Source of the DNA: a virus
Virus record (IMG/VR): IMGVR_UViG_3300021961_000135
Span: 1 to 53,854 of that record
Length of the DNA stretch: 53,854 nt
Direction: 5' to 3' (one strand)
Shown here one piece after another: positions 19,517-51,739 of the stretch. Both the position numbers and the translations under genes were made by a program. The notes below the pieces were generated by a model. It did no database searches. It was not told the origin of the DNA and worked only from the letters and a program-made list of their open reading frames with translations. The stretch's first letter is position 1, and each line of letters opens with the position of its first letter.

Positions 19517-19688
19517 CGCCAAGCTTGCCGTCAAGGATGCCCACGCTAGCGTGGGCATCTAGTATCCGCTGGAAGAACGCTTGTTTTAAGCCCCACTCAC
19601 GCATGGCTTCGGTGTCAAGGCAGGGGATAAAGAACCCCTGCCCTTTCTCAAGTTTCTCCCACGGAAGGCGCAGTAAGGAGTACTTCAT
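19482..19688 (-). CDS. Small conserved phage protein (68 aa), unknown function
   Basis: Translation from ATG 19688 gives MKYSLLRLPWEKLEKGQGFF, then IPCLDTEAMREWGLKQAFF and a GKLGVMFYRR end. It resembles a family of short phage proteins of the pattern FFxPC...R..L...LGVLFYR. Its start lies inside the 3' end of the primase-helicase gene (overlap 41 bp) with no clear ribosome site, suggesting coupling. Its 3' end overlaps the end of the convergent giant gene by 35 bp. The final part of the gene contains a 24-bp perfect palindrome. The function is not recognised; the protein-like composition and family resemblance argue for a real gene. Confidence 0.6.
   Translation of the reverse strand: MKYSLLRLPWEKLEKGQGFFIPCLDTEAMREWGLKQAFFQRILDAHASVGILDGKLGVMFYRRLVAAS
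19536..19559. terminator. 24-bp perfect palindrome at the convergent gene junction
   Basis: A perfect two-fold palindrome (left half GATGCCCACGCT, right half its complement, centre CTAG) sits 20 bp after the stop of the giant plus-strand gene and inside the last codons of the convergent minus-strand gene. It would form an 10-11 bp hairpin in RNA of either strand. No T-run follows on either side, so intrinsic termination would be weak. Its position suggests a bidirectional stop or 3'-end stabiliser. Confidence 0.5.
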
Positions 19689-27249: not shown

Positions 27250-27915
27250 CTAATGCTTAGGGTTGAACTCACAGCCAGTGACCTGACACCAGCCGCATAG
27301 TGGGGTTTGATTTGGGTTCCAGACATCGTTCTCAAAGCATGCCTCGAGCCGAGCAGTACGCTCACGATACTTCCACCAAAAGTTTTCGGCTTGGTCTCGT
27401 GTCATCTGCATCTTGACCATATCATTTTTGACGATGAACAGCAACGCAGAGTTGACCTTACGGATGTGGGGGAAGTGTTGGAACACCATGAGCGACATAA
27501 GCACAAGCTGATCCCTGTCAGGGTACTTGTTGTTGCCAGTCTTCCAGTCTCCCACCCACGCCGTAAGGTTCTCGTCGTCAACGATCAGAATGTCAGCGAT
27601 GCCCCGCACCCAAACATCAGGCGCTTTCCAGTTAGTAGGCGTAAGGTCAGCGCGTAGCGCCATCTCGTACTCTGCTAGCTTTCTTCCGGGCTTCTTGAGC
27701 ATGGCGTCCACCACAGGCTGGAACTGTGCGTACTCAGGCGGTATAGGCGTTTGATCCCTGATGTAGTTCTCAATCGCCTCATGCACCTGATTGCCATACC
27801 GCGTGGCTTCGGTCTCTTGGAAGGGGTACTTCTTCAAGACCTTGACCTCGTGATACCTGCGCTGACAGCCTTCAAAATCCTTGAGACTGCTGTGTGACCA
27901 TGCTGGTTTTTTCAT
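27250..27915 (-). CDS. PD-(D/E)XK nuclease, Cas4/RecB-like
   Basis: 221 residues. WSHSSLKDFEGCQRRYHEVK is the usual N-terminus. GNQVHEAIENY gives the H of the RecB-type nuclease. RGIADILIVDD ... GDWKTG carries the catalytic D and DxK (motifs II and III). The C-terminal CGWCQVTGC with the N-terminal Cys (QRRY phrase) could hold an iron-sulfur cluster as in Cas4. It would act as an exonuclease in recombination-dependent replication. It overlaps the zincin gene by 4 bp (ATGA). Confidence 0.85.
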   Translation of the reverse strand: MKKPAWSHSSLKDFEGCQRRYHEVKVLKKYPFQETEATRYGNQVHEAIENYIRDQTPIPPEYAQFQPVVDAMLKKPGRKLAEYEMALRADLTPTNWKAPDVWVRGIADILIVDDENLTAWVGDWKTGNNKYPDRDQLVLMSLMVFQHFPHIRKVNSALLFIVKNDMVKMQMTRDQAENFWWKYRERTARLEACFENDVWNPNQTPLCGWCQVTGCEFNPKH

Positions 27916-28211
27916 TCGAACTTCGCTGTGTTAATGGCTTTGTTAAGCCGTGTTGCAAATGCTGATACAAAACGCTCGTCACGATACAGAGGGCTGTCCA
28001 TGTCATGCAAGATTGCATGCGTAAGCTCATGCCAAAAGGTGTCACCTACCTCGTGCTTTGTGAACGGCTTGCCTGTGTGGTTGCGTGTACCGATACGAAT
28101 GTGTTGCGCGTCATAGTGCACACGCCCCATGTAGTTCTTATCGATCATCGCCTCGATGACTTCCACGCTGTACCAGCGCCTACCGACTCTTATTTTTGTT
28201 GGTAATTTCAA
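27912..28211 (-). CDS. Small HExxH metalloprotease-like protein (99 aa)
   Basis: FWHELTHAILHDMDSP carries HELTH, a gluzincin-type zinc site, in a compact domain resembling short phage or conjugative-element peptidases. The start is TTG at 28211, overlapping the previous stop (TTGA), with GGAG eight bases upstream. The RDERFVSAFATRLN phrase downstream may supply the third ligand (Glu/Asp). It lies between nuclease and polymerase genes. It could be a protease or a zinc-dependent structural protein; the substrate is unknown. Confidence 0.65.
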   Translation of the reverse strand: MKLPTKIRVGRRWYSVEVIEAMIDKNYMGRVHYDAQHIRIGTRNHTGKPFTKHEVGDTFWHELTHAILHDMDSPLYRDERFVSAFATRLNKAINTAKFE

Positions 28212-28453: not shown

Positions 28454-30439
28454 TTAGTTTTTTGCTAACCCATAACGACGGTGTGCGCCACCGTCAGCGT
28501 CCAATGGAATGCCCGGCATATAAGGCGGCTCCATAGTCATCTGCGCCAAGACCCAAGTCTTAGCTTCTGCAACTTCAGCGTCAGGAACCACAACGATCTG
28601 TTCGTCATGTACTGTTCCCGCCACGAAGTATCTCTTCGCAGTACGCACCATCCCATCAGTCATCACGCATCTCGCTACGCCCTGCGTGACATTGTTGGTT
28701 ATTTTTCCTGCGTATATCTTAGTACGATCTGGCCCGTATGTCCACTCCAGTTGATCTTTATTTGTTTTCTCGTCTTTGTAGCGCCTGATGCTGAGGTCAG
28801 GATACAACAGCTTCATGCCGGACGGCAGTTCAATCTCCCCCTTGCGGTAGATCAGGCACTTGTGCTTGTACTCACGCCCCTTGTACAGGCACTCACCGAT
28901 AAGCTGGGTGTTCAAATCCCAGAAGTCCACCACAGGCGTAGCTGTAGCCCTGTACTTGTCGATGATGGCCTTGGCCGCAAGGCAGTGGATGACTAGCTCC
29001 TTGGTCGTACAGGTGTGCGGTATGGCTTGGAGCTTCTCAGCGTTGACTTCCCATTCCAAGAACTTTACTGCGGCTTGTTGCGTGACCCCCAGTTTCTTTG
29101 CAAAGGCAAGGTCGTACCGCTGAGGCGGCGCCCCAAGGAACCCTGTAAGTAGTTGCGACGCAAAGGCAGCCCAACCGAGTCCATAGCCGCACCCAAGCAA
29201 CGCGCTCTTTGCCGACTGCCTGAGATCAGGATGGGACTCTTTGGTGAGATTGGGGATGTTGAACATCTGCGCACCGAACGCGGCATAAGGGTCACCCCCA
29301 GCCCTGAAGATGTCAAGCATATCTGTATAGTCAGCCAGCCACGCAAGGACTCGCGGCTCAATCTGTGACAGATCGCCCACGACGAGTTGGTGGCCAGCGG
29401 GAGCCATAATTGCTTTGCGTAAGAACGAACCCCGCTTGAGGTTTTGCATGTTGATGGCCGAGCCTTTGCTTGCTGTCCAACGACCCGTCTGCGCACCGTA
29501 GTAAGAAAGCGGAACAGGGAGCGCACCTCTCTGGCTGATCTCAAGGAATCGCTGTGCGCGGGTTCTCTCTGTAGTAGATTTAACCCGAAGACGCGCTTCA
29601 CAAAGAAGGGCAACGTCCTCACGTTCACCGTTGAGTAACGCTTGAAATAGGGCATCGTTTTTAGCGAGTGCAAGTGTTTCTTTCCCAGTCGTCTTACTGG
29701 TCTTGGTTGGCGGAACCACATTGAGTTTCGTAAGTAGTGCAGCAAACTGCTGATTCGACGCCAGTGCAGTCTCTTCCACGCCGAGCTTCTGTAATAGGGC
29801 TTCACGTTTTTCCTTTTCATCTAGTATGGCATCGGTCAGCATGTTGGGGTCAAGCTCAAGGCATGCACGGGTGTACATCTTGAGGGTCATGTCTATAAGC
29901 CGTAGTTCTTTCGCAGGGTATCCTTTGACCAAGCGATCAAAGATTCTTTCGCATAGATATACGTCGTGTTTGCAATAGTCCGATAGCTCAGATTCCATGA
30001 CCTCGTCCAACTCGGCCACACCATTGGTGCTGTATACGGCTGTCCCTTTGGCGGGAAGATTAAAATCGATTGCAAGTTTGGCGAGACTGTTGCCAACCTC
30101 AACGCCTCTGAGAGCTCTCGCCATTGATAATGTGTCGAAGATGAAGCAGGGTGATACACCGTAGCGCCACTCCATAATGGATACATCGAACTGTGCGTTG
30201 TGCGCAAGCACTGCGGTTCGTCCCCAGTCGATTCCAGAAAAGTATTCACGTAGTCCATCTCCTCTAACCCACGTAGTTGGGCTGTCAGATCCGAACTCAT
30301 GAACGCAGCATCCAAACGCGTGAAATAAGTCATGGCGTATGTACTCCTCAGTTGTCATTTTTGTTAGTGTGTAACCTATCTTGGTGTCCCAATAGGTCTC
30401 GAAGTCGATCGTCAAGATCGTGTCGTATGGTTTACTCAT
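28454..30439 (-). CDS. DNA polymerase, family A with 3'-5' exonuclease domain
   Basis: 661 residues. Exonuclease motifs are LTIDFETYW (D12, E14), HNAQFD (80-85) and YCKHDVYL (D159). The polymerase domain has motif A VVGDLSQIEPRV (D355), the O-helix-like RQSAKSALLGCGYGLG (K410, Y418) and motif C TVHDEQIVVV (about 611-613). The segment after the O-helix is longer than in Pol I. This is the replicative polymerase of the phage; with the primase-helicase, nuclease and SNF2 translocase it makes a self-contained replication set. Confidence 0.92.
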   Translation of the reverse strand: MSKPYDTILTIDFETYWDTKIGYTLTKMTTEEYIRHDLFHAFGCCVHEFGSDSPTTWVRGDGLREYFSGIDWGRTAVLAHNAQFDVSIMEWRYGVSPCFIFDTLSMARALRGVEVGNSLAKLAIDFNLPAKGTAVYSTNGVAELDEVMESELSDYCKHDVYLCERIFDRLVKGYPAKELRLIDMTLKMYTRACLELDPNMLTDAILDEKEKREALLQKLGVEETALASNQQFAALLTKLNVVPPTKTSKTTGKETLALAKNDALFQALLNGEREDVALLCEARLRVKSTTERTRAQRFLEISQRGALPVPLSYYGAQTGRWTASKGSAINMQNLKRGSFLRKAIMAPAGHQLVVGDLSQIEPRVLAWLADYTDMLDIFRAGGDPYAAFGAQMFNIPNLTKESHPDLRQSAKSALLGCGYGLGWAAFASQLLTGFLGAPPQRYDLAFAKKLGVTQQAAVKFLEWEVNAEKLQAIPHTCTTKELVIHCLAAKAIIDKYRATATPVVDFWDLNTQLIGECLYKGREYKHKCLIYRKGEIELPSGMKLLYPDLSIRRYKDEKTNKDQLEWTYGPDRTKIYAGKITNNVTQGVARCVMTDGMVRTAKRYFVAGTVHDEQIVVVPDAEVAEAKTWVLAQMTMEPPYMPGIPLDADGGAHRRYGLAKN

Positions 30440-36409: not shown

Positions 36410-37528
36410 TCAAGTCAACAGCGCAGGTAGTACTGGCTTGAAGACTGCAGGCTTGCGTACATCCCATTGCAGGTAGTAGCAGATGACCTCAGCGATAGCT
36501 GTGACTGTATGGAACGACTTGGTCGCGGCACTGATAAGACCAGACGCATCGCCCTCCACCAGCATATCGTATATGCCTTGCTCGGCAAAGCACAGGTCAT
36601 CACGATGCGAGTAGCTAAGCGCAGACGCTTGGAAGCAGTGCAGTAGCGTAGTCAGCGTGTACGCAGGCATCTGGTCAAGCCAGACCTCGATGCTGTCCAC
36701 ATCAGCCTCCAGCACCGCATTGGCAATCTCATCAGCTTCAGGGCGCACAAAGCCATCCTCATCAGCATCGGCATCTGGGAACTCGTAAGACGCCTCGTCG
36801 TAGTTGGCGCTGTGTGCGCTAGCCTTGCGTGGATAGATGCCAAAGCTTGCGTTGTAGTCGTACATCTCGTCGTACTCGTCATCCATGTAGTTGCCGTAGC
36901 CACTCGTGTACTTGTACGACTTGAGCGCAGTCGTGCTTTTGTAGCTGGGTATAAGACGCGATGGAGTCCAAGCGTAGGTATTGCTGAACCACATATCGTC
37001 ATGCTCGATACCTTGATCGAAGTTGACATGCTGCATACGACCCTCGCCGTTCATGAACACGAAGCGATTGTTGCCGATGAACTCCTCCATCATAGACACG
37101 AAGCCCTTGTCGTACACAAGGTCAGGGGCAGAGGACACAGCGCTGTGCAAGTAGTCCTTGATGAAGTGCCATGTATCTGACTTGGACTTGTCAGCGGCAT
37201 TGCCCGTGTGCAGTACGCCGTTGTGCATCATGGCGATGAAGCCAGGAATCACATCATAGGGATGGCAGTTGAGCATATCGGTCTTGCCGTGTGTAGTCCA
37301 GCGGAAGTGAATAGCGATCTCACGCTCGTCTTGAGGCAGGCGCTGAATGAATGCAGTAGCATCGCCAAGATTCTTGGGCAAGGTCTTGGTGACCTTGAGC
37401 CCCTTGGCTGTGCCATACATGAACCCAATGCCGTCAGGGTTGGAGGTGAAGATGTCGCTGAGTAAACCGTGCGTGTCGAGCAGGGTTGAACGAACTTTGG
37501 AAGACTTGCCAGTAATAATGAGACACAT
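36410..37528 (-). CDS. Class II glutamine amidotransferase (Ntn-type)
   Basis: 372 residues. It starts MCLIITGKS, leaving Cys2 as the likely N-terminal nucleophile after Met removal. It continues with the GAT-II pattern: NPDGIGFMYG (~30-39), AIHFRWTTHGKT (~72-83) and GFIAMMHNGVLHTG (~95-108). These form the Gln-binding and active-site motifs. The middle and C-terminal 190 residues are Tyr/Asp-rich and of unknown function, unlike the compact GAT-II of PurF. GAT-II releases ammonia from glutamine for a partner. The next gene upstream (37586) is an amidoligase, the known genomic partner of such proteins. Confidence 0.85.
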   Translation of the reverse strand: MCLIITGKSSKVRSTLLDTHGLLSDIFTSNPDGIGFMYGTAKGLKVTKTLPKNLGDATAFIQRLPQDEREIAIHFRWTTHGKTDMLNCHPYDVIPGFIAMMHNGVLHTGNAADKSKSDTWHFIKDYLHSAVSSAPDLVYDKGFVSMMEEFIGNNRFVFMNGEGRMQHVNFDQGIEHDDMWFSNTYAWTPSRLIPSYKSTTALKSYKYTSGYGNYMDDEYDEMYDYNASFGIYPRKASAHSANYDEASYEFPDADADEDGFVRPEADEIANAVLEADVDSIEVWLDQMPAYTLTTLLHCFQASALSYSHRDDLCFAEQGIYDMLVEGDASGLISAATKSFHTVTAIAEVICYYLQWDVRKPAVFKPVLPALLT

Positions 37529-37552
37529 AATAAACTCCTTGAGAAAAAGAAT

Positions 37553-37568
37553 GGGGGGGTTTCTCCCC
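37553..37568 (-). terminator. Hairpin between amidoligase and amidotransferase genes
   Basis: On the minus strand GGGGAGAAACCCCCC (a variant of the dispersed hairpin) is followed by CATTCTTTTTCTC, a U-rich tract, and then the ribosome site AAGGAG of the next gene. It lies 17 bp past the amidoligase stop. A weak terminator or attenuator is likely; there is no room for a promoter. Confidence 0.45.
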
Positions 37569-37585
37569 GCTTGGTTGTTGTTGAA

Positions 37586-39667
37586 TTAAACAGGTTGATC
37601 GGCAGACACTTCGTACGAGCACTGCGCCATAGTTGCCGCGAATGACTCGTTCATAAGAACCCACAACTCATTGACACGCATATACACGACATCGCCAGCA
37701 GCGATGGTGTCCATGTCGCCGTACGGGAAGAACGCATACTCAGAGCCTGCGTATGTAGCGAAGCGGAAGTACAGGTTGTTGCGCTCTACCCATGTCCTGA
37801 TGGTCTCAGCCTCGCTGTCGTAGGGTATGTGCATGGGGTAGTCATGGTTGTGCCTGTGCTCTGTGTACTGAGGTTGCCACGGGGCAGGGGGCACAGCGTC
37901 AGCGCAGGTCTCTGAAGCAGGTGCGATGACTGTTGGCGTAGAGGTATGTATCTGACGCACGCCATACCACTTGGTCAGCGCAGGGTACTGGCCGACAACA
38001 GTACGAAGCCACTTGATGAACGATGCACCATTGAGATCACGCCACGATGCGACACGGCAGAACATGACAGCGGCATGAGTGAACTCGATCTGTGCAAGGA
38101 GGCGTTCTTTCTTGAGTGATGCACGGAAGATGCGAAGCTCGACAGTGTTGTACTTGCCGTTGTAGCTGTTGTCCATGCTAAGACCAAGACGCAGAGCCTC
38201 ACGCTTGCCAAGGTTCATCATGTTGACCATGCGATAGCGCTCACCAGACTTATTCTTGACAGCCTGCTTGGGGTTGACAAGTATGGACTGATGCTCAGCG
38301 GCGCAGTAGCTACGGGCTTGGTCATCGACAGATGGATGGCGACCAGCAATCTTACGAATGAAGTCGACATTGCCGTTGCTGTTGATGAACATGAGGAACT
38401 TGCCAAGCGTCAACTGCGTGAAGGCACGAGAGTCAATGTGGATGTGCATACCGCACTTGCCCGTGTTCCATGCACGATAGGCAGGGTCAATGTCCCAAGC
38501 CTTGAATGTCTCGATGTGCTTGGTCAAGCCGTGTGGCATGGTCACAACCTCGAAGCCGTTGTGCGGTAGAGAGCCGTCACTCTTGATGATGCAGTATGAG
38601 GAACCGAGACGGCTACGCACAGACTCAGCGGCTGGGTGAGTATCGCTGTCACCCGAAGTCATCTCAAGCTCGATGCCCATCGTGAACTCCCCGAAGTGAG
38701 AAGACCTGATGCCTGAGTCGGAGTCAAGCACATTGAGCACATTGGTAGAGTACGACATGATTGGCTGATCTCTATCGTCGTCATCGCTGTCTTCATCATC
38801 GTCGCTGTCGTCACGATCATAGGTGTAGTAGCAGTCGTCACGATCACTGTAGTACGCATCGTCACGAGGCCAGTACTCATCGTTGTCCTCGCAGTACACA
38901 GCGTCATCCTCGAAGCATGAGTCACACCAAGTATCACGGCGCACATCGTGCGTGTTGTTCTCGTCTTCGTAGTGACCGCAGTCGCAGTGCACGATGCCCA
39001 TGTCCATGTCATTGATGGCATTGAACGCGCTGTCCAAGTGACTGTTGAAGTCGCCGTAGCGGTTGGATAAGTCAAAGAACGAGGTGCGTATCTCATCATT
39101 GCTGATGGACTCATCGCCTGCCTTGGCACGAGCAACGAGATGCCCGAAGTTCTTGAACGAACTGCGTATGAGGTTGTACCCATCATTGCTGAAGTGATGA
39201 CCGCCCTTGAACACAGCGTGTGGGTTATCAGTGTGACCAGCATACGCAACAGGATCATGCTTGCGTGCATAAGCCTCAACGACCTGATCGATACGCACAG
39301 ACAGCCTACTGCGAGCAAGTCGTGGCATATCATCCATGAGTTTAGGTGTCAGCAGTCTACGCATCATCTGATGCATATCGTAGCGATCACGGCTCTCATC
39401 ACTAGCCTCCTTGTATGTGATGGCACGAGGTGCATGAGCAAGATCACCTCTGACACGATAGCGTGAGACGCGAGTCCACAGCGCAAGGTTGTCGTTGGTA
39501 AGCAGATCAAGCGGTGACTTGAAGTTTGCTGACATAGAGTCACTGACAGTCAAGCGCCTACGAGATGCGTTGTACACCATGTAGCGGTTGTTGAGTGACA
39601 CGACAAACATGATGGCGTTGGAAGAGTCAATGAAGTCTTCCATAACAAAGCGAGTGAATTGAAACAT
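37586..39667 (-). CDS. Amidoligase-family (ATP-dependent amide-forming) enzyme with zinc-ribbon-like insert
   Basis: 693 residues. The C-terminal half holds the amidoligase signature: TMGIELEMTSG (331-336, acidic metal/substrate pocket), IIKSDGSLP (361-368), GFEVVTMPHG (371-380), GMHIHIDSRAF (406-415) and NTVELRIFRASL (~513). These match the COOH-NH2 ligase fold (related to glutamate-cysteine ligases). Residues 228-259 carry CxC...CxxC plus another Cys, a zinc-binding insert, followed by a highly acidic stretch (~260-300). Residues 1-220 are unfamiliar. It would join a carboxylate to an amine using ATP, with ammonia from the neighbouring GAT-II. The substrate is unknown. Confidence 0.75.
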   Translation of the reverse strand: MFQFTRFVMEDFIDSSNAIMFVVSLNNRYMVYNASRRRLTVSDSMSANFKSPLDLLTNDNLALWTRVSRYRVRGDLAHAPRAITYKEASDESRDRYDMHQMMRRLLTPKLMDDMPRLARSRLSVRIDQVVEAYARKHDPVAYAGHTDNPHAVFKGGHHFSNDGYNLIRSSFKNFGHLVARAKAGDESISNDEIRTSFFDLSNRYGDFNSHLDSAFNAINDMDMGIVHCDCGHYEDENNTHDVRRDTWCDSCFEDDAVYCEDNDEYWPRDDAYYSDRDDCYYTYDRDDSDDDEDSDDDDRDQPIMSYSTNVLNVLDSDSGIRSSHFGEFTMGIELEMTSGDSDTHPAAESVRSRLGSSYCIIKSDGSLPHNGFEVVTMPHGLTKHIETFKAWDIDPAYRAWNTGKCGMHIHIDSRAFTQLTLGKFLMFINSNGNVDFIRKIAGRHPSVDDQARSYCAAEHQSILVNPKQAVKNKSGERYRMVNMMNLGKREALRLGLSMDNSYNGKYNTVELRIFRASLKKERLLAQIEFTHAAVMFCRVASWRDLNGASFIKWLRTVVGQYPALTKWYGVRQIHTSTPTVIAPASETCADAVPPAPWQPQYTEHRHNHDYPMHIPYDSEAETIRTWVERNNLYFRFATYAGSEYAFFPYGDMDTIAAGDVVYMRVNELWVLMNESFAATMAQCSYEVSADQPV

Positions 39668-39696: not shown

Positions 39697-39713
39697 GGGG
39701 AGAAAGTCTCCCC
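39697..39713 (-). terminator. Hairpin copy 1 of the 17-bp family (GGGGAGAAAGTCTCCCC)
   Basis: A 7-bp stem with a three-base loop. On the minus strand it is followed by ATCTTTTTATA, so it has intrinsic-terminator form. It lies 22 bp past the stop at 39735 and 30 bp before the start at 39667. It also serves as a boundary between the small-gene cluster and the amidoligase gene. Confidence 0.7.
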
Positions 39714-40708: not shown

Positions 40709-41413
40709 TCAGTCCTCCCCTAAAGAGAGTTTTGTCCATGTGGCAGGCACAGCTTCGTTCTTATCAAGCGCTTCAATAATCTTGATGGCTTGCTTGATTC
40801 GCCTGAGTTTGGCTGTGCGTTGGTCTGTGGCGTTGATGGCTATCTGCCGTTCTAGCGTTTCCATCTCTTTCCTTGTCTTGGTCAATAATCTCACCTTGGC
40901 TGTCTCGTGCTGATGGGGCAGCATGGTGCGTTGGAATGGCGTCTTGCGTTTGCCCCTTGGGGTTACTGGAACTTCGTTGAAGAGTAGAGTCACCTTGTCC
41001 TTGACCCTTGCAGGTATCCAGTCAGTCCAATGCTCGCCATCGTTGGGCAGTCCCTTGTCACGGGCTATCTGTATGGGCGTGTGATCTAACGCTTTGTATG
41101 GTGCGTCTAGCATGGCTACAAGTTTTTCCATGATGCGGATGTATTCACCGAACGCTAGCGTTCTTTCTGGGGAGACTTTCTCCCCGCCGTATCTCATGCC
41201 GACCTTGGCATTATTGATTTCGTAGCGCAGGGGTTGCAGTACTTTGTCCCACTCTGCCTTGCGCTGGGTGCGTGTGATACGGGAGACTCGAAGCGTTTCT
41301 TTGAGGTCAGCGACCTCTTGTTTGATGCGCTCGATCTCTGCGGGGTGTAGTTTGCGCTCAGTCAGGCGGTTGTGAAGGGCGTTGGGTGTGAGTTTGAGGT
41401 ATGTTTCGTACAT
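40709..41413 (-). CDS. Charged coiled-coil protein (234 aa), unknown
   Basis: From ATG 41413 (GGAG about 11 bases upstream; the in-frame start at 41458 lies in the inverted repeat) it reads MYETYLKLTPNALHNRLTER. It is almost wholly helical, with a coiled coil near residues 24-58 and a basic C-terminal helical half (KVRLLTKTRKEMETLERQIA). A copy of the dispersed hairpin lies inside the gene and encodes GEKVSP. It is the first gene downstream of the symmetric non-coding region. Function not recognised. Confidence 0.55.
   Translation of the reverse strand: MYETYLKLTPNALHNRLTERKLHPAEIERIKQEVADLKETLRVSRITRTQRKAEWDKVLQPLRYEINNAKVGMRYGGEKVSPERTLAFGEYIRIMEKLVAMLDAPYKALDHTPIQIARDKGLPNDGEHWTDWIPARVKDKVTLLFNEVPVTPRGKRKTPFQRTMLPHQHETAKVRLLTKTRKEMETLERQIAINATDQRTAKLRRIKQAIKIIEALDKNEAVPATWTKLSLGED
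41169..41185. repeat. Dispersed hairpin copy 3, inverted orientation, inside a gene
   Basis: Exact copy read as GGGGAGACTTTCTCCCC on the plus strand. It encodes GEKVSP in the gene at 40709-41413, so it is tolerated in coding DNA. Confidence 0.85.
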
Positions 41414-41440
41414 GAGATTATTGACTCCGAAATTGAGAGG

Positions 41441-41747
41441 CGGCCAAATGTCCAACACTACAGGGCGTAGACTAAGTTTGGTGTAGGCTCTGAAGCCGCA
41501 CCAATGCTAGCTTAGCACGAAAACTGTCCGATGTATCTATGTAATTTCTGGGAAGCTAACGCCAACCAAAAAAAGAAAGTCTTTGAGAAAGCGGAAATGC
41601 TCACCCCCTGATACATACATCTCTATATATATTTATATATATTATAGATAGATAGATAGGACAGTTTTTGCGGAACGCTAGTGTTCATGCGGGTTGCGGG
41701 GTTACACCAAACTTAGTTCGGGGGTTGTAGTGTTGGACATTTGGCCG
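41441..41747. other. 307-bp non-coding region with long-range dyad symmetry (candidate origin or control region)
   Basis: Two 45-bp arms, 41441-41485 and 41703-41747, are inverted copies: 22 of 22 outer bases and 15 of 15 inner bases match, with eight mismatched bases between. Inner pair AAAACTGTCC (41520-41529) and GGACAGTTTT (41659-41668) is exact and shares the same centre, base 41594. Shorter matches (CTAGC, TATCTAT) also mirror about that centre. The middle (about 41620-41660) is a run of A/T with GATA repeats that could melt easily. No gene over 20 codons with a ribosome site is seen. TGTCC half-sites occur four times. A replication origin or a control region is inferred. Confidence 0.7.
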
Positions 41748-41777
41748 TGACTGGTTTTTTGACTCAATAATCTCGCA

Positions 41778-42017
41778 CTATAGTGCAGATGGGGAGACTT
41801 TCTCCCCAAAAGGCAGGTCGAGTTGGTGCATACCATTCTTCCATTGGTCATACGCTTGCTGCGTTTCGAACACAAGACCACGCAGATGTAGCGCACCTTT
41901 GACGAACACATGAACCTGATGGTTCGTGCCATAGATGATTGTCTGCATATGGTAGTCACGCCCTCTGATGGTGACGATGCCGACTTCTTTTGTGACGGGC
42001 TGAATGAGGTTACGCAT
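41778..42017 (-). CDS. Small protein (79 aa), unknown
   Basis: MRNLIQPVTKEVGIVTIRGR, with beta-rich middle (HVFVKGALHLRGLVFETQQA) and DLPFGEKVSPSAL end. The leader AAGGAGATCATC-ATG is shared with three neighbours. The last codons include a copy of the dispersed hairpin. Function unknown. Confidence 0.5.
   Translation of the reverse strand: MRNLIQPVTKEVGIVTIRGRDYHMQTIIYGTNHQVHVFVKGALHLRGLVFETQQAYDQWKNGMHQLDLPFGEKVSPSAL
41791..41807. repeat. Dispersed hairpin copy 4, inverted orientation, inside a gene
   Basis: Exact copy read as GGGGAGACTTTCTCCCC on the plus strand, encoding GEKVSP at the end of the gene at 41778-42017. Confidence 0.85.
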
Positions 42018-42027
42018 GATGATCTCC

Positions 42028-42222
42028 TTAGTTGCTGTGGTGAAGACGGGCGTAACGGCTCATGGCTTTGAGCATTACCTTTTGTGGGATGCGGTAGTCA
42101 TTAGCCAATGCCTTGGCAAGTGTGGGCAACAGGTGTGCTTGTACACAACGGATGGCGTTGTGTAACTCGTGAAGGATTCGCTTGGCATCCCGTGTGTCGA
42201 GGGTGTGTTGTTTGAGGGACAT
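42028..42222 (-). CDS. Small protein (64 aa), unknown
   Basis: MSLKQHTLDTRDAKRILHEL, helical, His- and Arg-containing, then TLAKALANDYRIPQKVMLKA. Leader AAGGAGATCATC-ATG, identical to its neighbours. Function unknown; possible nucleic-acid-binding by charge. Confidence 0.5.
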   Translation of the reverse strand: MSLKQHTLDTRDAKRILHELHNAIRCVQAHLLPTLAKALANDYRIPQKVMLKAMSRYARLHHSN

Positions 42223-42232
42223 GATGATCTCC

Positions 42233-42391
42233 TTAAGTGTTGTCGTGCTTGGTGATGAGTGTTGCGCCTTGCCACAGTTCTACGACTGTGAAGTGCTTTG
42301 ACAAAGTGCTGAAAAGAACTAAGGCGTCAATGTAGTTGTCTGCCTTGTATGTGCGGTCAAAACCGCTGTCGCGAAGGATTACTGAGTGCAT
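42233..42391 (-). CDS. Small protein (52 aa), unknown
   Basis: ATG 42391 follows the shared leader AAGGAGATCATC; the longer in-frame reading to 42490 has no ribosome site and would cross a hairpin. It reads MHSVILRDSGFDRTYKADNY, then LVLFSTLSKHFTVVELWQGA and a basic end. Mixed alpha/beta. No family recognised. Confidence 0.6.
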   Translation of the reverse strand: MHSVILRDSGFDRTYKADNYIDALVLFSTLSKHFTVVELWQGATLITKHDNT

Positions 42392-42431
42392 GATGATCTC
42401 CTTGAGATTATTGATTGGACAAAGAATGAAA

Positions 42432-42458
42432 CACCGCAAGGGCTTGGCTCTTGCGGTG
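42432..42458 (-). terminator. 9-bp stem hairpin, possible terminator
   Basis: CACCGCAAG and CTTGCGGTG (9-bp stem, nine-base loop) lie between the gene ending at 42493 and the gene starting at 42391. On the minus strand it is followed by TTTCATTCTTTGTCC, only a loose U-rich tail. An intrinsic terminator, attenuator or mRNA-processing hairpin is likely. Confidence 0.5.
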
Positions 42459-42471
42459 ATCTGACAGAAAC

Positions 42472-42488
42472 GGGGAGAAAGTCTCCCC
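42472..42488. repeat. Dispersed hairpin copy 5 (GGGGAGAAAGTCTCCCC)
   Basis: Exact 17-bp copy four bases beyond the stop of the gene at 42493-42960 and 13 bp from another hairpin, giving a two-hairpin spacer. Confidence 0.9.
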
Positions 42489-42492
42489 AAGA

Positions 42493-42960
42493 TTATTGAA
42501 AGGACACAGAGTCACGCAACTGAGCAAGCAAGGCATCGAACTGTGCCTTGGTCAAGCCTGCGTCAATAATCTCGCTGACGATGTTGCTCACCAGTTGCTT
42601 GGGTACAGCGACTGTAGGTTTCTTGCCGTCTGATTTCTCAGGGCGACTGATGTGGTAGCGGAACTTCGCCTTGCCTGCATTGACGGCAAGCTCCTCAGTT
42701 CTGGTGCGCTCTGTGCGTTTCTTGCCGTAGGCTTTGGTTGCCTGAGCAAGCGTCATGGGCTTGATCTCTTTGCGAACGGCTGTGTAGCCAACCATGTAGT
42801 GCGTCACATAGCGTTGCTCCCAATCTGCTTTGTGCTCTGCTTCGAGTGCCACATACTGTGTGTGATATGTGTCGCTTGCATTTAGCACAGACGCATCGTT
42901 CTTACCGCAACCCTCCGCAAACTGTTCGTAGGTGTAGGTTGTTGCTTTTGCTTTAGTCAT
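42493..42960 (-). CDS. Protein (155 aa), first gene of the minus-strand block
   Basis: MTKAKATTYTYEQFAEGCGK starts a hydrophilic protein with RTRTEELAVNAGKAKFRYHI in the middle and a helical end (LVSNIVSEIIDAGLTKAQFD, LLAQLRDS). Leader AAGGAGATCATC-ATG as in the next three genes. It may be an early gene product. No domain recognised. Confidence 0.55.
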   Translation of the reverse strand: MTKAKATTYTYEQFAEGCGKNDASVLNASDTYHTQYVALEAEHKADWEQRYVTHYMVGYTAVRKEIKPMTLAQATKAYGKKRTERTRTEELAVNAGKAKFRYHISRPEKSDGKKPTVAVPKQLVSNIVSEIIDAGLTKAQFDALLAQLRDSVSFQ

Positions 42961-43254: not shown

Positions 43255-43270
43255 TGTCCAAGGTTTGACA
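43255..43270. promoter_or_regulatory. Operator-like site TGTCCAAGGTTTGACA
   Basis: Third copy of the TGTCYA-N4-TKGACA motif (one arm imperfect). It ends at the A of the ATG at 43270 and lies near the head of the terminase gene cluster, so it could control late expression. Confidence 0.5.
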
Positions 43271-43395
43271 TGCCCAATAAAAAAGAGCCCCGAACCTTTC
43301 GATCCGGGGCGCAAGGAGGTTTCCCTCAAGGAGAAGCAACTGAACAATTCAACAAAAGAAGACTTGCACTGTTGCCGAAAAGAAGTGTACACTAA
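43270..43395 (+). CDS. Possible 41-residue leader peptide before terminase
   Basis: ATG 43270 with AAGG six bases before it opens a 41-codon frame: MPNKKEPRTFRSGAQGGFPQ, then a basic end. The start region (CAAGGTTTGACATGCC) is identical in 16 bases to that of the gene at 53095, suggesting genuine translation. A longer frame to 43087 has no ribosome site. Its stop is 43 bp before the likely terminase small-subunit start. Moderate to low confidence. Confidence 0.3.
   Translation: MPNKKEPRTFRSGAQGGFPQGEATEQFNKRRLALLPKRSVH
43279..43310 (-). terminator. Minus-strand intrinsic terminator
   Basis: On the minus strand a 6-bp GCCCCG/CGGGGC stem (43287-43310) with a 12-base loop is followed by TCTTTTTT. 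It would stop antisense transcription coming from the terminase region before the minus-strand early block. Confidence 0.65.
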
Positions 43396-43438
43396 CACCA
43401 ACGAGGCCACAAGCACCCGCCAGTGCCGACCCTACGCA

Positions 43439-44029
43439 ATGCTAGAACATCTTATTCACGGCGAATTTCACCCAGACGTGGTCGACATGACTGCGGCTAC
43501 GCTTTTGCCGCTTGATAAGGCCGAGCCTGCAACCATCATTGACGCACAAGTCAAGACAGCAGAGTGGCTCAAGGACTTGGAACTAGACGACGAAGCGGCA
43601 GAGTCCAAGGCAGACGCCCAAGCAGCGCGTCAATCGTTTGCTTCTCTTGTCACAGGCCAGCCACCACAGAATACACAGCAAGCACTTGCTAACATTAAAG
43701 CGCCAGCGGCAGTCCAGCACCTAGTGGGGATGCTCACAGCCTACGACTGGGCGTTTGTGGAGCAGGCTAAAGAACTGCGCGGGTTTGCCGTGGCTAAGAT
43801 CCTTGAGGAAGTAGACCATCCCGACGCCCGCATCCGGCTCAAGGCGCTAGACATGCTAGGTAAGGTTACGGAAGTGGCGCTGTTCACTGAGCGTGTTGAG
43901 GTCAAGAAGACTGAGATGTCGGACATAGAGCTTGAAAACCGCATTAAGGACAAGCTCAATAGGTTCATGGGCGTGATTGATGTGGTAGATGTGTCTGAAG
44001 AAGCCGTGAAAGATGCAGATGAAGACTGA
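43439..44029 (+). CDS. Terminase small subunit (inferred)
   Basis: 196 residues from ATG 43439. Residues after ~70 (LTAYDWAFVEQAKELRGFAV, then AKILEEVDHPDARIRLKALD and LGKVTEVALFTERVEVKKTE) form a helical oligomerising domain seen in many small terminases, with ELENRIKDKL at the end. No obvious ribosome site precedes 43439; an alternative non-ATG start (CTG 43340, 6 bases after AAGGAG) would add 33 residues. It overlaps the large subunit gene by 17 bp, the usual arrangement. Role: DNA recognition and packaging start. Confidence 0.65.
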   Translation: MLEHLIHGEFHPDVVDMTAATLLPLDKAEPATIIDAQVKTAEWLKDLELDDEAAESKADAQAARQSFASLVTGQPPQNTQQALANIKAPAAVQHLVGMLTAYDWAFVEQAKELRGFAVAKILEEVDHPDARIRLKALDMLGKVTEVALFTERVEVKKTEMSDIELENRIKDKLNRFMGVIDVVDVSEEAVKDADED

Positions 44030-45560
44030 GAAGTTCACAACGCTCAGCAAACTGGAGCTCGAGGCCATGGCCAAGGCGCTTCCGCACATGACACTGCAGG
44101 AAAAGATGGAGCTCTTCCAAGATTTGGAGATGCGAGAAGCCCGCGCCAGTTTGCAAGCGGCCAAAACAAACATGCTGGGGTTTGCTCAAAGCGTCTATCC
44201 GGGCTTTAAGATTGGGCCGCACCACAGGAAACTGGCCAAAATATTCACAGATGTGGTCGAGGGTAAGAAAAAGCGCGTGATTATCAACATTGCGCCGCGT
44301 ATGGGTAAGTCTGAGTTCTCCTCATACCTGTTCCCTGCATACTTTTTGGGCAAGTACCCAAATAAGAAGATCATCATGGGCACCCACACCGCTGGTCTGT
44401 CTGAGGACTTTGGCCGTAGGGTGCGTAATCTGATTGAGTCGGAGGAGTACCGTGAAGTTTTTCCTCAAACAATGGTGGCTGACGACCAAAAAGCTGCCGG
44501 TAAATGGTCTACATCAGCTGGCGGTCAGTATTATGCTGCTGGTGTGGGTGGTGCACTGGCCGGTCGTGGTGCTGATCTGTTCGTTATTGATGACCCACAC
44601 TCTGAACAAGATGTAAAAGCCAACAGCCGCCTTGCGTTTGACACTGCGTGGTCTTGGTTCCAGACTGGCCCTTTGCAGCGCTTGATGCCGGGGGGTGCGA
44701 TCATTGTGATTATGACCAGATGGTCGTTGTTAGACCTCACTGGGCGCTTGATTGACTACCAAGCACGCAACCCAGAAGCCATTCCATGGGAAATCGTGGA
44801 GCTTCCGGCCATATTGCACGAAGACACCGAGGACGAGAAGTCGTTGTGGCCAGAGCAATGGCCACTGACTGCGCTTAAAGCTACAAAAGCGTCCATTGAG
44901 CCTAGGTATTGGAACGCGCAGTACATGCAGCAGCCAACTTCTGAGAATTCAGCCATCGTTGGGCGCAAGATGTGGCGGATATGGGAGCACGAAGACCCGC
45001 CGCAGTGCGACTACGTCATTCAGTCATGGGATACGGCGTTTGAGACCAAGAACAACTCAGACTATTCAGCCTGCACCACATGGGGCGTGTTCTTCAACGA
45101 AGAAGAGAAGGACGCGGCGCAGATTATTCTCTTGGATGCGTTCAAAGACCGCATGACGTTCCCCGACCTGAAGGCCACAGCGCTTAAGCACTACAAGGAG
45201 TGGGAGCCAGACGCGTTTATCGTGGAGAAGAAGGCCGCTGGTGCGCCGCTGATCCAAGAGTTGCGGGCTATGGACATCCCTGTGCAGGAAACAAACCCTA
45301 GCCGTGGCAACGACAAGATGGTACGATTAAACGCAGTGGCTGATTTGTTTGCCTCTGGCATGGTCTGGGCACCAGACACACGATGGGCACGAGAAGTGAT
45401 CGAAGAGATGGCGGCTTTCCCAGTTGGGGAGCACGATGACTTCGTGGACACGACCACACAGGCGCTGCTACGCTTTAGGCAAGGCGGCTTTATCACTTTG
45501 AACACGGATGCGAAGGATGACCCTGACCTCTTCCGCCGCAAGTCGTACGCATACTATTAG
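44013..45560 (+). CDS. Terminase large subunit
   Basis: 515 residues. ATPase: INIAPRMGKSEFSS (Walker A, ~91-104; APRMGKSE deviates from GxxGxGKS but fits large terminases), IIMGTHTAGL, ADLFVIDDPH (Walker B, D193/D194). Nuclease: QSWDTAFETKNNSDYSAC (D340), FIVEKKAAGAPLI (E405) and EHDDFVDTTTQ (D475-D479). It cuts and packages DNA into the procapsid. Full length for the family. It is followed 9 bp later by the portal gene. Confidence 0.93.
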   Translation: MQMKTEKFTTLSKLELEAMAKALPHMTLQEKMELFQDLEMREARASLQAAKTNMLGFAQSVYPGFKIGPHHRKLAKIFTDVVEGKKKRVIINIAPRMGKSEFSSYLFPAYFLGKYPNKKIIMGTHTAGLSEDFGRRVRNLIESEEYREVFPQTMVADDQKAAGKWSTSAGGQYYAAGVGGALAGRGADLFVIDDPHSEQDVKANSRLAFDTAWSWFQTGPLQRLMPGGAIIVIMTRWSLLDLTGRLIDYQARNPEAIPWEIVELPAILHEDTEDEKSLWPEQWPLTALKATKASIEPRYWNAQYMQQPTSENSAIVGRKMWRIWEHEDPPQCDYVIQSWDTAFETKNNSDYSACTTWGVFFNEEEKDAAQIILLDAFKDRMTFPDLKATALKHYKEWEPDAFIVEKKAAGAPLIQELRAMDIPVQETNPSRGNDKMVRLNAVADLFASGMVWAPDTRWAREVIEEMAAFPVGEHDDFVDTTTQALLRFRQGGFITLNTDAKDDPDLFRRKSYAYY

Positions 45561-45568
45561 GAACACAC

Positions 45569-48148
45569 ATGGCAACGAACATTGACAAAGCGCTGTACCA
45601 ACAGCCAAAAGGACTTGAAGAACTGGCGCAGGACGAGTCTGCCATTGAGATTGAGATCGTTGATCCTGAAGCTGTCAAGATTGGTATAGACGGCATGGAG
45701 ATTGAGATTGAGCCGGGTGAGCCCTCTGCTGAAGACTTTGACGTTAACCTTGCTGAGTACATGGACGAGAGCGCCTTGGCAACGCTGGCCAGTGACTTGG
45801 CGGGGGACATTGACCAAGACAAGAACTCCCGCAAGGATTGGGAGAAAGCATACACCGAAGGTTTGAAGCTTTTGGGTTTGCAGATGGAAGAAAGAACAGA
45901 GCCTTGGAACGGCGCGTCTGGCGTGTTTCACCCGATGATTACAGAAGCCGTTGTGCGCTTCCAGTCTGAGACCATCACCGAGACATTCCCAGCGCAAGGC
46001 CCTGTGCGTACCAAAATCCTTGGTAAAGAGACACCGCAGAAACAAGAAGCTGCTGTTCGCGTAGAAGCTGATATGAACTACCAGTTGACCGAGAAGATGG
46101 TGGAGTTCCGTCCTGAGCATGAGCGCATGTTGTGGTCACTGCCTGCTACCGGCTCTGCGTTCAAGAAGGTGTACTACGACCCCTCTTTGGGCCGTCAAGT
46201 GTCTATTTTTATTCCAGCAGAAGACATGATCTTGCCCTACGGCACATCAGACATTCAGACTTGCTACCGCGTCACGCACGTCATGCGCAAGACCAAGAAT
46301 GAGATTTTGAAACTCCAGCAAGCGGGCTTTTACTGCGAAGTTGATCTGGGTGAGCCAGACAAGGTTGTGGGTGACATTCAGAAAGCCAAGGACAAAGAAA
46401 CAGGCTTTAGTGATCTGAACGATGACCGCTTCACTTTGCTTGAGTGCCATGTGGACTTGGACATCAAAGGCTTTGAGGATGAGGAAGACGGAGAACCTAC
46501 AGGCATTGCACTGCCGTATGTGGTGACCATCATCCGCGGCACAAACGATGTTTTGGCCATTCGCCGTAACTGGGAAGAAGATGACCCACTTAAACTCAAG
46601 CGCCAGCACTTCGTGCACTACCAATATATTCCGGGTTTTGGAGCTTATGGCTTCGGGCTGTTCCATCTTATCGGGGGCTTTGCTAAATCCGCTACCAGCA
46701 TCATGCGCCAGCTCATCGATGCAGGCACGCTGTCCAACTTGCCCGGTGGTCTTAAATCCAGAGGCTTGCGCATCAAGGGAGACGACACCCCGATCGCACC
46801 GGGAGAGTTCCGTGACGTAGACATTGGCTCTGGCACGATCCGTGACAGCATCCTGCCCCTGCCGTACAAAGAGCCGTCTGCCGTGTTGGCCAGCTTGCTC
46901 GATAAGATCGTAGACGAAGGCCGCAGGTTTGCCGCAACTGCAGACATGAAAGTGTCTGACATGTCTGCGCAAGCTCCCGTGGGCACAACTCTAGCCCTCC
47001 TTGAGCGCCAGCTTAAAGTGATGACGGCGGTTCAAGCCCGTGTGCACTACGCGTTGAAGCAAGAGTTGCAACTGCTTCGTGACATCATCCGTGACTACAC
47101 AGATGACTCGTACACATACGAGCCAGAAGGCGACGACGGCCCCAAAGCCAAGAAAGCTGACTACGCACTCGTAGCAGTTATTCCTGTGTCTGATCCCAAT
47201 GCGGCCACCATGAGCCAGCGTGTGGTGCAGTACCAAGCTGTCATCCAGATGGCGCAGATGGCTCCAGACATTTACGACTTACCGCAGTTGCACCGCAACA
47301 TGCTTGAGGTGCTTGGCATCAAAAACGCAGACAAGCTTGTGCCTTTGCCAGACGATCAGAAACCCAAAGACCCCGTGGCAGAGAACATGGCTGTGCTCAA
47401 GAGCGAGCCAATCCAAGCGTTTGTGGAGCAAGACCACACAGCGCACATTGCTGTTCACACCAGCATGATGCAAGACCCAACAGTCATGCAGTTGATTGGC
47501 CAGAACCCCAAGGCTCCTCAGATTCAAGCGGCGCTGACTGCACACATCGCAGAGCACGTTGGGTTCCAGTACAAGTTGCAGTTGGAAAAACAACTTGGCA
47601 TGTCGATTCCAAAAGAAGACGAGCAGCTGCCAACAGAGATTGCCAACGCAATGGCCGGCATGATGGCGCAGGCCGCACAGCAGATGTTGCAACAGAACCA
47701 AGCACAAGCGGCACAACAGCAAGCACAACAGCAAGCGCAAGACCCGCTCATCCAGATGCAGCAAGCCGAGTTGCAACTCAAGCAACAGGAAATTCAAGCC
47801 AAGATTCAAATGGATCAACAACGCTTGCAAATGGAAACGCAGAAGATGCAGCAAGACTTCCAACTTAAACAGCAAGCCGCACAGCTTGATGCCCAGAAGA
47901 TGGTGGCTGACATCACGGCTAAGTCTGACAAGCTGGAGTTGGACACGGAGAAGATGCGCAGTGACAAAGAACTTGAAGGTATGCGCATCGGTGCGCAGAT
48001 CAACGAGAGCAAGGCCAAACAACAGTTTGACCAAGAGTTTGCAGGCGTGAAGCTAGGCTCTGAAATTTCTAAGCGTCAGAAAGAACTGGATTTGCAAGCC
48101 CGCACAACTGCTTTGCAAAGCACATCCAATAACAAGGAACCCAAATGA
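45569..48148 (+). CDS. Portal protein, P22-like
   Basis: 859 residues. Conserved blocks: EERTEPWNGASGVFHPMITE, FQSETITETFPAQGPVRTKI, SLPATGSAFKKVYYDPSLGR, and later GFGLFHLIGGFAKSATSIMR then LPGGLKSRGLRIKGDDTPIA. The ~300-residue C-terminal tail is Gln-rich and alpha-helical (QQAQAAQQQAQQQAQDPLIQ), like the long helical barrel of P22-type portals. It forms the dodecameric DNA gateway. It overlaps the next gene by 4 bp (ATGA). Confidence 0.9.
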   Translation: MATNIDKALYQQPKGLEELAQDESAIEIEIVDPEAVKIGIDGMEIEIEPGEPSAEDFDVNLAEYMDESALATLASDLAGDIDQDKNSRKDWEKAYTEGLKLLGLQMEERTEPWNGASGVFHPMITEAVVRFQSETITETFPAQGPVRTKILGKETPQKQEAAVRVEADMNYQLTEKMVEFRPEHERMLWSLPATGSAFKKVYYDPSLGRQVSIFIPAEDMILPYGTSDIQTCYRVTHVMRKTKNEILKLQQAGFYCEVDLGEPDKVVGDIQKAKDKETGFSDLNDDRFTLLECHVDLDIKGFEDEEDGEPTGIALPYVVTIIRGTNDVLAIRRNWEEDDPLKLKRQHFVHYQYIPGFGAYGFGLFHLIGGFAKSATSIMRQLIDAGTLSNLPGGLKSRGLRIKGDDTPIAPGEFRDVDIGSGTIRDSILPLPYKEPSAVLASLLDKIVDEGRRFAATADMKVSDMSAQAPVGTTLALLERQLKVMTAVQARVHYALKQELQLLRDIIRDYTDDSYTYEPEGDDGPKAKKADYALVAVIPVSDPNAATMSQRVVQYQAVIQMAQMAPDIYDLPQLHRNMLEVLGIKNADKLVPLPDDQKPKDPVAENMAVLKSEPIQAFVEQDHTAHIAVHTSMMQDPTVMQLIGQNPKAPQIQAALTAHIAEHVGFQYKLQLEKQLGMSIPKEDEQLPTEIANAMAGMMAQAAQQMLQQNQAQAAQQQAQQQAQDPLIQMQQAELQLKQQEIQAKIQMDQQRLQMETQKMQQDFQLKQQAAQLDAQKMVADITAKSDKLELDTEKMRSDKELEGMRIGAQINESKAKQQFDQEFAGVKLGSEISKRQKELDLQARTTALQSTSNNKEPK

Positions 48149-50809: not shown

Positions 50810-51739
50810 ATGGCAATTTCACGCGCACAACTACTTAAAGAGTTGCTCCCCGGCCTGAACGCTTTGTTCGGCATGGAATACGCACGCTACGGCGAAGAGC
50901 ACAAAGAAATCTACGAAACAGAGAAATCTGAGCGTAGCTTCGAAGAAGAGACAAAGCTGGCTGGCTTTGGTTCTGCTCCCGTCAAGAACGAGGGTTCTTC
51001 AATTGCGTATGACAACGCACAGGAAGCCTTCACCGCACGTTACAACCACGAGACTATCGCTCTGGGCTTCAGTATCACTGAAGAAGCTGTGGAAGATAAC
51101 TTGTATGACTCCTTGTCTGCACGTTACACCAAGGCTTTGGCCCGTGCCATGTCTTACACCAAGCAAGTTAAAGCTGCTTCCGTTATCAACAACGGTTTCA
51201 GCGGCAGCTACCTTGGCGGTGACGGCGTATCCTTGTTCGGTGTGAACTCTTCTAGCGCTCGCGTTGGTCACCCACTCGTTAACGGTGGTGTGAACTTCAA
51301 CAGCCCAACTACTGGTGTTGACTTGAACGAAACCTCTTTGGAAAATGCTGTGATTCAAATCGCCGCATGGACTGATGAGCGCGGTCTGTTGATCGCCGCC
51401 AAGCCCCGTAAGATGGTGATTCCTCCAGCACTGATGTTCGTTGCCAAGCGTTTGCTTGACACTGAACTGCGTGTTTCTACTGCTGACAACGACATCAACG
51501 CGTTGAAGCAGATGGGCGCAATCCCAGAAGGTTACACCGTTAACCACTTCTTGACCGACAGCAACGGCTGGTATTTGATTACCGACGTGCCAAACGGCAT
51601 GAAGCACTTTGAGCGTATGCCTTTGGCTAACTCAATGGACGGTGATTTCGACACTGGAAACGTTCGTTACAAGGCTCGTGAGCGTTATAGCTTCGGCTGG
51701 TCTGATCCCCTCGGTATGTGGGGTTCTGCAGGCGCTTAA
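50810..51739 (+). CDS. Major capsid protein
   Basis: 309 residues, GGAG before ATG. MAISRAQLLKELLPGLNALF, the N-arm FEEETKLAGFGSAPVKNEGS, then FSITEEAVEDNLYDSLSARY (E-loop and spine-helix-like), ARVGHPLVNGG, and KMVIPPALMFVAKRLLDTEL with MKHFERMPLANSMDGDFDTG show a HK97-fold coat of the Mu gpT-like type. It follows the scaffold and decoration genes and is followed by a strong terminator, as expected for the most expressed gene. Confidence 0.9.
   Translation: MAISRAQLLKELLPGLNALFGMEYARYGEEHKEIYETEKSERSFEEETKLAGFGSAPVKNEGSSIAYDNAQEAFTARYNHETIALGFSITEEAVEDNLYDSLSARYTKALARAMSYTKQVKAASVINNGFSGSYLGGDGVSLFGVNSSSARVGHPLVNGGVNFNSPTTGVDLNETSLENAVIQIAAWTDERGLLIAAKPRKMVIPPALMFVAKRLLDTELRVSTADNDINALKQMGAIPEGYTVNHFLTDSNGWYLITDVPNGMKHFERMPLANSMDGDFDTGNVRYKARERYSFGWSDPLGMWGSAGA

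Follow-up and report, generated by a model that had tools for sequence, protein, structure and literature searches.

A conserved mirrored dyad as the probable replication origin of a lineage of uncultured tailed phages

The phage lambda origin lies inside gene O, where iterons bind the O protein and the initiator sites stand beside an AT-rich part. In the SaPI origin, oppositely oriented repeats lie on both sides of an AT-rich stretch. SaPI Rep initiates replication as a self-loading protein and uses its C-terminus to recognise the repeats of the origin, SaPI origins are located directly downstream of the helicase gene, and the DUF927 protein Cch is related to SaPIbov1 Rep (PMC7581432). The herpes simplex OriS consists of inverted initiator boxes around an AT-rich spacer, which is distorted by two initiator dimers (PMC12543377), and the PLE satellite of the Vibrio ICP1 system has a noncoding origin with a repeat-bound initiator of the RepA_N family (PMC7145576). 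Origins in which inverted sites enclose AT-rich DNA are already known, from herpes OriS (PMC12543377) as well as from SaPI and satellite elements (PMC7581432, PMC7145576). Cluster O mycobacteriophages carry dispersed 17-bp palindromes of 7+3+7 form in many copies, some of them in genes (PMC4351075). The replication origin of an uncultured phage is hardly ever pinpointed. Comparison of related genomes around a 360-base non-coding stretch of one such phage points here to an origin, its likely initiator and the DNA words involved. We believe that this stretch, a large dyad, is probably the phage replication origin, with mirrored initiator arrays and an AT tract that would open, most likely through the action of a DUF927 primase-helicase.

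The sequence studied, called the window below, is the whole 53,854-bp virus record IMGVR_UViG_3300021961_000135. Its late genes are transcribed rightward and its early genes leftward. The late block includes a terS-like gene (43265-44029), terL (44013-45560), portal (45569-48148) and capsid (50810-51739) genes, and also, on the plus strand, a 3593-aa ORF at 8735-19516. The early block includes genes for PolA (28454-30439), an SNF2-type helicase (25020-26579) and an exonuclease (27250-27915). The DUF927 primase-helicase proposed as initiator is encoded on the minus strand at 19648-22542. On the same strand, 36410-39667 encodes an amidoligase-like 693-aa protein (PF12224) and an adjoining 372-aa protein with weak similarity to a glutamine amidotransferase (GlmS); the two are possibly a peptide or cell-wall modification pair. 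The dyad is flanked on one side by a minus-strand gene for a 234-aa protein (40709-41413), directly downstream of it, and on the other by a 79-aa gene (41778-42017).

Computation showed that the dyad is made of two 130-nt arms, the left at 41414-41543 (plus strand) and the right at 41645-41774 (minus strand), which are complementary without gaps at 96/130 positions (74%) about a common centre at base 41594. Dinucleotide shuffling of the stretch, repeated 300 times, gave at best 58/130 (mean 50.1, sd 2.1), and the second-best dyad anywhere in the window reached 59/130. The opposite-strand self-comparison and shuffling thus bore out the mirrored arms that the original prediction had centred on this base. 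One arm boundary coincides with the ATG of the 234-aa gene and the other falls just past the stop of the upstream gene. The predicted 45-bp outer pair (41441-41485 and 41703-41747) is present, with 38 matches where 37 had been counted, and the true arms proved to be longer; the inner 10-bp pair AAAACTGTCC (41520-41529 and 41659-41668) is an exact match, as described. The description of the region as the only sizeable non-coding stretch of the early block also stood, as the largest early-block stretch lacking a minus-strand ORF of at least 45 aa is 243 bp long and lies at the dyad, the next being 71 bp. The middle of the dyad had been misread. The 100 bp between the arms (spacer 41544-41644) has no symmetry, with 10/50 matches about the centre, and the A/T and GATA run that had been placed at the centre actually spans ~41619-41660, 25-65 bp to the right of it, and extends into the right arm.

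A search with the 234-aa protein recovered 67 viral loci at first and then at least 120. The dyad occupies the matching position in almost every one of the 60-odd related viral loci studied, and the retention of arms and spacing in more than 60 loci answered the call for conservation in relatives that had accompanied the prediction. In group 1, where the 234-aa protein is 78-88% identical, the dyad is in place with zero indels within the arms across 30 distinct sequences, and in group 2 (52-57% identity) it occupies the same place. Two homologues at 28-30% identity have weaker dyads (40/60 and 36/60, with background near 33). A protein-independent scan with the DNA pattern ACTAGYRTTCATGCGG gave 75 viral stretches. 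Those encoding the 234-aa protein had dyads of 37-50/60 unless the contig was cut there, and they included a third group (36-38% identity) with both gene and dyad. Stretches without the 234-aa gene scored 29-33/60 and served as a built-in negative control. The exceptions were L152, with a strong dyad on a contig that stops before the gene, and L151, with the gene on a contig cut within the dyad.

The lineage is widespread in the environment, and no cultured member was found; neither similar DNA nor the 234-aa protein was detected in named phages. In the named terL relatives 023Pt_psg01, DSL-LC04, MinM2 and HTVC023P, dyads reached at most 39/60 (60-bp arms, first 50 kb of each), which is at or near background, so these phages have no clear counterpart. 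Marginal intergenic dyads, again near background, were seen close to annotated terS genes at L072:20663 (37/60, DSL-LC04) and L071:13750 (38/60, 023Pt_psg01).

The arms are composed of several motifs, among them TGTCC half-sites, a CTAG..TTCATGCGG core and GATA runs. As originally noted, TGTCC/GGACA occurs four times (0.56 expected per 307 bp): the outer and inner left half-sites are at 41449-41453 and 41525-41529 on the plus strand, and the inner and outer right half-sites at 41659-41663 and 41735-41739 on the minus strand, where the plus strand reads GGACA. Their spacings are 76, 134 and 76 bp, and the 76-bp step from the outer left site is kept in relatives. In the L049-L063 clade TGGC replaces TGTCC in both arms with the 76-bp spacing unchanged, which is the trace expected from a specificity change in a trans-acting protein. 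The core motif is found as CTAGTGTTCATGCGG at 41678-41692 (plus strand) in one arm and as CTAGCATTGGTGCGG at 41496-41510 (minus strand) in the other. A 16-bp form of it occurs in viral contigs, and in every one that has the 234-aa gene this form precedes the ATG by 99-101 bp.

Each end of the dyad carries a 10-bp box, AGATTATTGA, at 41415-41424 (plus) and 41764-41773 (minus). Eight copies exist in the window, seven of them within 40773-42573; besides the terminal pair, these are two minus-strand copies within the 234-aa gene (40773-40782 and 40882-40891) and three copies at 42405-42414 (plus), 42490-42499 (plus) and 42563-42572 (minus). In five genomes the box is nearly restricted to the ~2 kb surrounding the dyad, and in the relatives the cluster comprises the dyad ends together with in-gene copies at +522/+631 or +45 of the 234-aa gene. 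The in-gene copy at 40773-40782 is present in most relatives of groups 1 and 2. The copy at 40882-40891 is read as the codons AGA TTA TTG, which account for 10%, 6% and 21% of their respective codon families, and this rare-codon box is conserved as DNA in most group 1-2a loci. In the third group the box is GCGAAAATCA (core GCGAAAAT), found at the dyad ends and within the 234-aa gene and nowhere else in the loci read, so that the switch from AGATTATTGA spans the whole box cluster. All listed 10-mers with at least four copies per 2 kb of the window are located at 40.6-43.0 kb. The eighth copy lies at the 3' end of the primase-helicase gene (19694-19703), and G002 and G003 have one at the matching place; it encodes EIIE and may be a coding coincidence or a second site. 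No iteron-like array was found, tandem repeats elsewhere in the window all being inside genes.

A 17-bp palindrome, GGGGAGACTTTCTCCCC, is situated just beyond the right dyad end (41791-41807). It is a member of a dispersed set of the form GGGGAGANNNTCTCCCC, with copies at 39697, 40662, 41169, 41791, 42472 and 42995. The arm word differs per related phage (GGGGAAC, GGGGAAA, GGGGACA, CGGGTCA and others) and is identical between the dyad-side copy and the copy in the 234-aa gene in 28/28 loci. This sharing alters the sequence of the 234-aa protein itself (GGEKVSP vs GGELVPQ).

Nearest-neighbour energies singled out one part of the dyad. The AT-rich tract at 41619-41658, a candidate DNA unwinding element, has the lowest stability of any 40 bp in the window, at -34.9 kcal/mol compared to -43.2 for the next candidate and a window mean of -56.0 (sd 3.4). 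The tract is also the stability minimum in the four near-complete relatives; over the five genomes its energy is -33 to -35 kcal/mol and that of the next candidates -40 to -43, a gap of 5-8 kcal/mol.

The relatives are mosaics. G005 (IMGVR_UViG_3300011335_000321) is 99.6% identical to the window in terL and 97% in PolA, and yet it has another dyad type and a 234-aa protein 57% identical to that of the window. Several structural genes of G005 are 96-100% identical to those of the window, and its helicase C-terminus, like its dyad and 234-aa gene, is of another type. Over nine genomes, dyad DNA identity correlated with identity of the 234-aa protein (r 0.97) and of the DUF927 helicase C-terminus (r 0.94), less closely with the SNF2-type helicase, an SF2 helicase (r 0.66), and hardly with TerS (r 0.24) or PolA (r -0.04). 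The correlation with the helicase C-terminus persisted (partial r 0.81) given the helicase core, SNF2, PolA and TerS; Mantel tests including the 234-aa protein were also run. PolA maps between the helicase gene and the dyad, so the correlation is not due to simple block linkage. When 25 rows (genes and thirds of the helicase) were compared across the four near-complete relatives, the strong followers of dyad type were the 234-aa gene, the helicase C-terminus and one 99-aa gene (27912-28211, minus strand). The last was dropped as a partner, since its allele departs from the dyad type in G020, and the match was taken as chance. That such a pattern held in four genomes and was broken in a fifth serves as a warning that there are few independent switches. 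The 99-aa product is a HELTH zinc-metallopeptidase-like protein with weak SprT/WLM similarity and two alleles among relatives (92-98% or 56-67% identity).

The part of the primase-helicase that co-varies with dyad type is its C-terminal 204 aa (19651-20262). The protein has a DUF927 match (PF06048, E 5.8e-22) and matches SaPIbov1 Rep by sequence (PDB 8tch, E 6.5e-4). A low-confidence model of the C-terminal part (pLDDT 63) was closest to Cch (Z 7.5) and SaPIbov1 Rep (Z 6.3), followed by winged-helix DNA-binding proteins, with Z values within the range of common arrangements. The 234-aa protein is predicted to be all-helical and belongs to no known family. Its model had no Foldseek match in the PDB below E 1, and the best VIA-align hit (Z 6.9) covered short helical stretches only. 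A PHROG match to a tail assembly chaperone (E 4.7e-5, residues 160-227) was set aside, because a tail protein would not be expected from the early block.

A structured RNA or DNA cruciform in which the two arms base-pair together would agree with the folding of the single strand, which is far better than that of shuffles (RNA z -13.8, DNA z -12.6), but good folding is common to any inverted repeat and these scores do not discriminate. The arms matched each other hardly better within a genome (91.1/130) than between genomes (90.3/130). Of the 69 column pairs invariant in both arms, 61 are symmetric and eight are always mismatched, and among sense-transcript mismatches G-U is rarer than A-C (96 vs 343). 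Rfam had no match for the dyad. We regard arm pairing as highly improbable. Conserved columns that are the symmetric ones, with little covariation of the arms, are the pattern expected for mirrored protein sites, and since base-by-base covariation is lacking the arms look like mirrored arrays of such sites, in line with the original view of symmetry kept at key motifs and not of a simple hairpin. Protein sites might instead serve transcription, as mirrored divergent promoters or operators through which a phage activator or repressor switches on the leftward replication operon. Such control would suit the place of the dyad immediately ahead of the long early operon that runs leftward, the fixed distance of the core motif from the ATG and the operator-like switching of half-sites. 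However, the region has no sigma-70-type promoter match (one in 4 kb, outside the dyad, vs 4.1 expected), transcription from the left arm would run antisense into the upstream genes, and the boxes and core motif are not reused upstream of other operons. The dyad type, moreover, tracks a helicase domain and not a recognisable regulator. A search for a T7-type RNA polymerase gave no match, but as the control search was equally silent it carries little weight. Overall, a control region seems to us unlikely.

A pac site, where the small terminase subunit would bind the boxes and dyad to start headful packaging, strikes us as comparably doubtful. Contigs of near-complete relatives do not all begin at one distance from the dyad, as would suit genomes that are circularly permuted and require a pac site, and the dyad is only ~1.5-2.5 kb from terS. 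Against this, the dyad type does not follow terS among the mosaic relatives, as the low TerS correlation indicates, and terS is without any copy of the box. The 234-aa protein has no similarity to the annotated TerS of related phages, and it is the 254-aa protein of the window that matches that TerS family. The symmetric multi-motif arms around a core also resemble, in outline, attP regions and centromeres, and the original prediction had mentioned a partition-like role. A partition centromere or the attP region of a temperate or plasmid-like phage nevertheless has almost no credence with us. ParB_N (PF02195) was absent from the window and the four near-complete relatives, so that the partition proposal is unsupported, and neither tyrosine integrase (PF00589) nor serine recombinase (PF00239) was found in five records, with positive controls in both searches, although the window may lack a few kb. 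The 234-aa gene has no relative among 84,980 cellular genomes.

The replication origin, also among the roles first predicted, has the strongest support of the functions considered, from the melting minimum, the local box cluster and the co-variation with the DUF927 C-terminus. The cumulative GC skew proposed as a check was of no help: the dyad was not singled out, local minima lay 0-10 kb to its left, and the lowest point was elsewhere in some genomes. This counts against an origin, as does the lack of DnaA boxes (TTATNCACA) in the window expected of a DnaA-dependent origin. The dyad at 41.6 kb is also 19 kb from the helicase gene (19.6-22.5 kb), unlike in SaPIs, and dyad type has switched independently only a few times among the 9-12 genomes behind the co-variation. 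We infer that initiator binding, melting, helicase loading and priming take place at the dyad. The mirrored arrays of TGTCC half-sites, CTAG..TTCATGCGG core, GATA runs and terminal AGATTATTGA boxes would load the initiator, most likely the DUF927 primase-helicase acting via its putative C-terminal DNA-binding domain, and the 234-aa protein possibly assists. The initiator complex would then melt the AT tract, two helicases would be loaded in opposite directions, and the helicase's own primase part together with the phage PolA would start bidirectional synthesis. Because whole words are exchanged while the geometry stays fixed, the specificity of the initiator is open to direct tests.

A broader and more tentative idea is that the dyad, boxes and dispersed palindromes form a replicon-identity system, in which lineage-specific cis words switch wholesale with their trans partners, the helicase C-terminus and the 234-aa protein; we hold this to be possible, though less likely than not to be correct in full. 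If true, near-identical phages with 99.6% identical terminases bear non-interchangeable origins, the phage equivalent of incompatibility or immunity groups in plasmids.

We found no report of this proposed origin in the open-access papers searched. What is new here is the long composite arms, the remote gene of the proposed initiator, and the wholesale switching of words among close relatives. The dispersed GGGGAGANNNTCTCCCC set beside the dyad is similar in shape to the cluster O repeats, but each phage has its own arm word and only 5-8 copies, which are concentrated around the dyad. With lambda ori the phage shares sites within a coding gene, whereas its boxes span 1.8 kb on both sides of the dyad. 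The PLE origin is likewise that of a phage-world replicon, noncoding and with a repeat-bound initiator, but it uses the RepA_N family and direct-repeat iterons, and no RepA_N gene was recognised in the phage. Compared to herpes OriS, the dyad is non-homologous, with much longer arms, an off-centre AT tract and another initiator family; it would work like OriS without being a member of its class. The helicase that binds a herpesvirus-type origin is an SF2 enzyme of UL9 type, and the SF2 helicase of the phage, the SNF2-type one, tracks dyad type less closely than the DUF927 C-terminus does. The closest likeness is to the SaPIbov1 Rep and SCCmec Cch replicons, in the DUF927 helicase with a C-terminal part structurally nearest, in a low-confidence model, to Cch and SaPIbov1 Rep, and in an origin of repeated sites, here mirrored half-sites and boxes, with an AT-rich part. 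The differences are that the phage dyad adjoins an unrelated 234-aa gene at 19 kb from the helicase gene, that its arms are rigidly spaced 130-bp multi-motif composites and not simple iterons, and that the host element is a tailed phage and not a chromosomal island. Since it is not directly downstream of the helicase gene, we consider that the dyad works like a DUF927 replicon and do not file it as a member; if this reading is true, DUF927 self-loading initiators extend from staphylococcal islands to large tailed phages.
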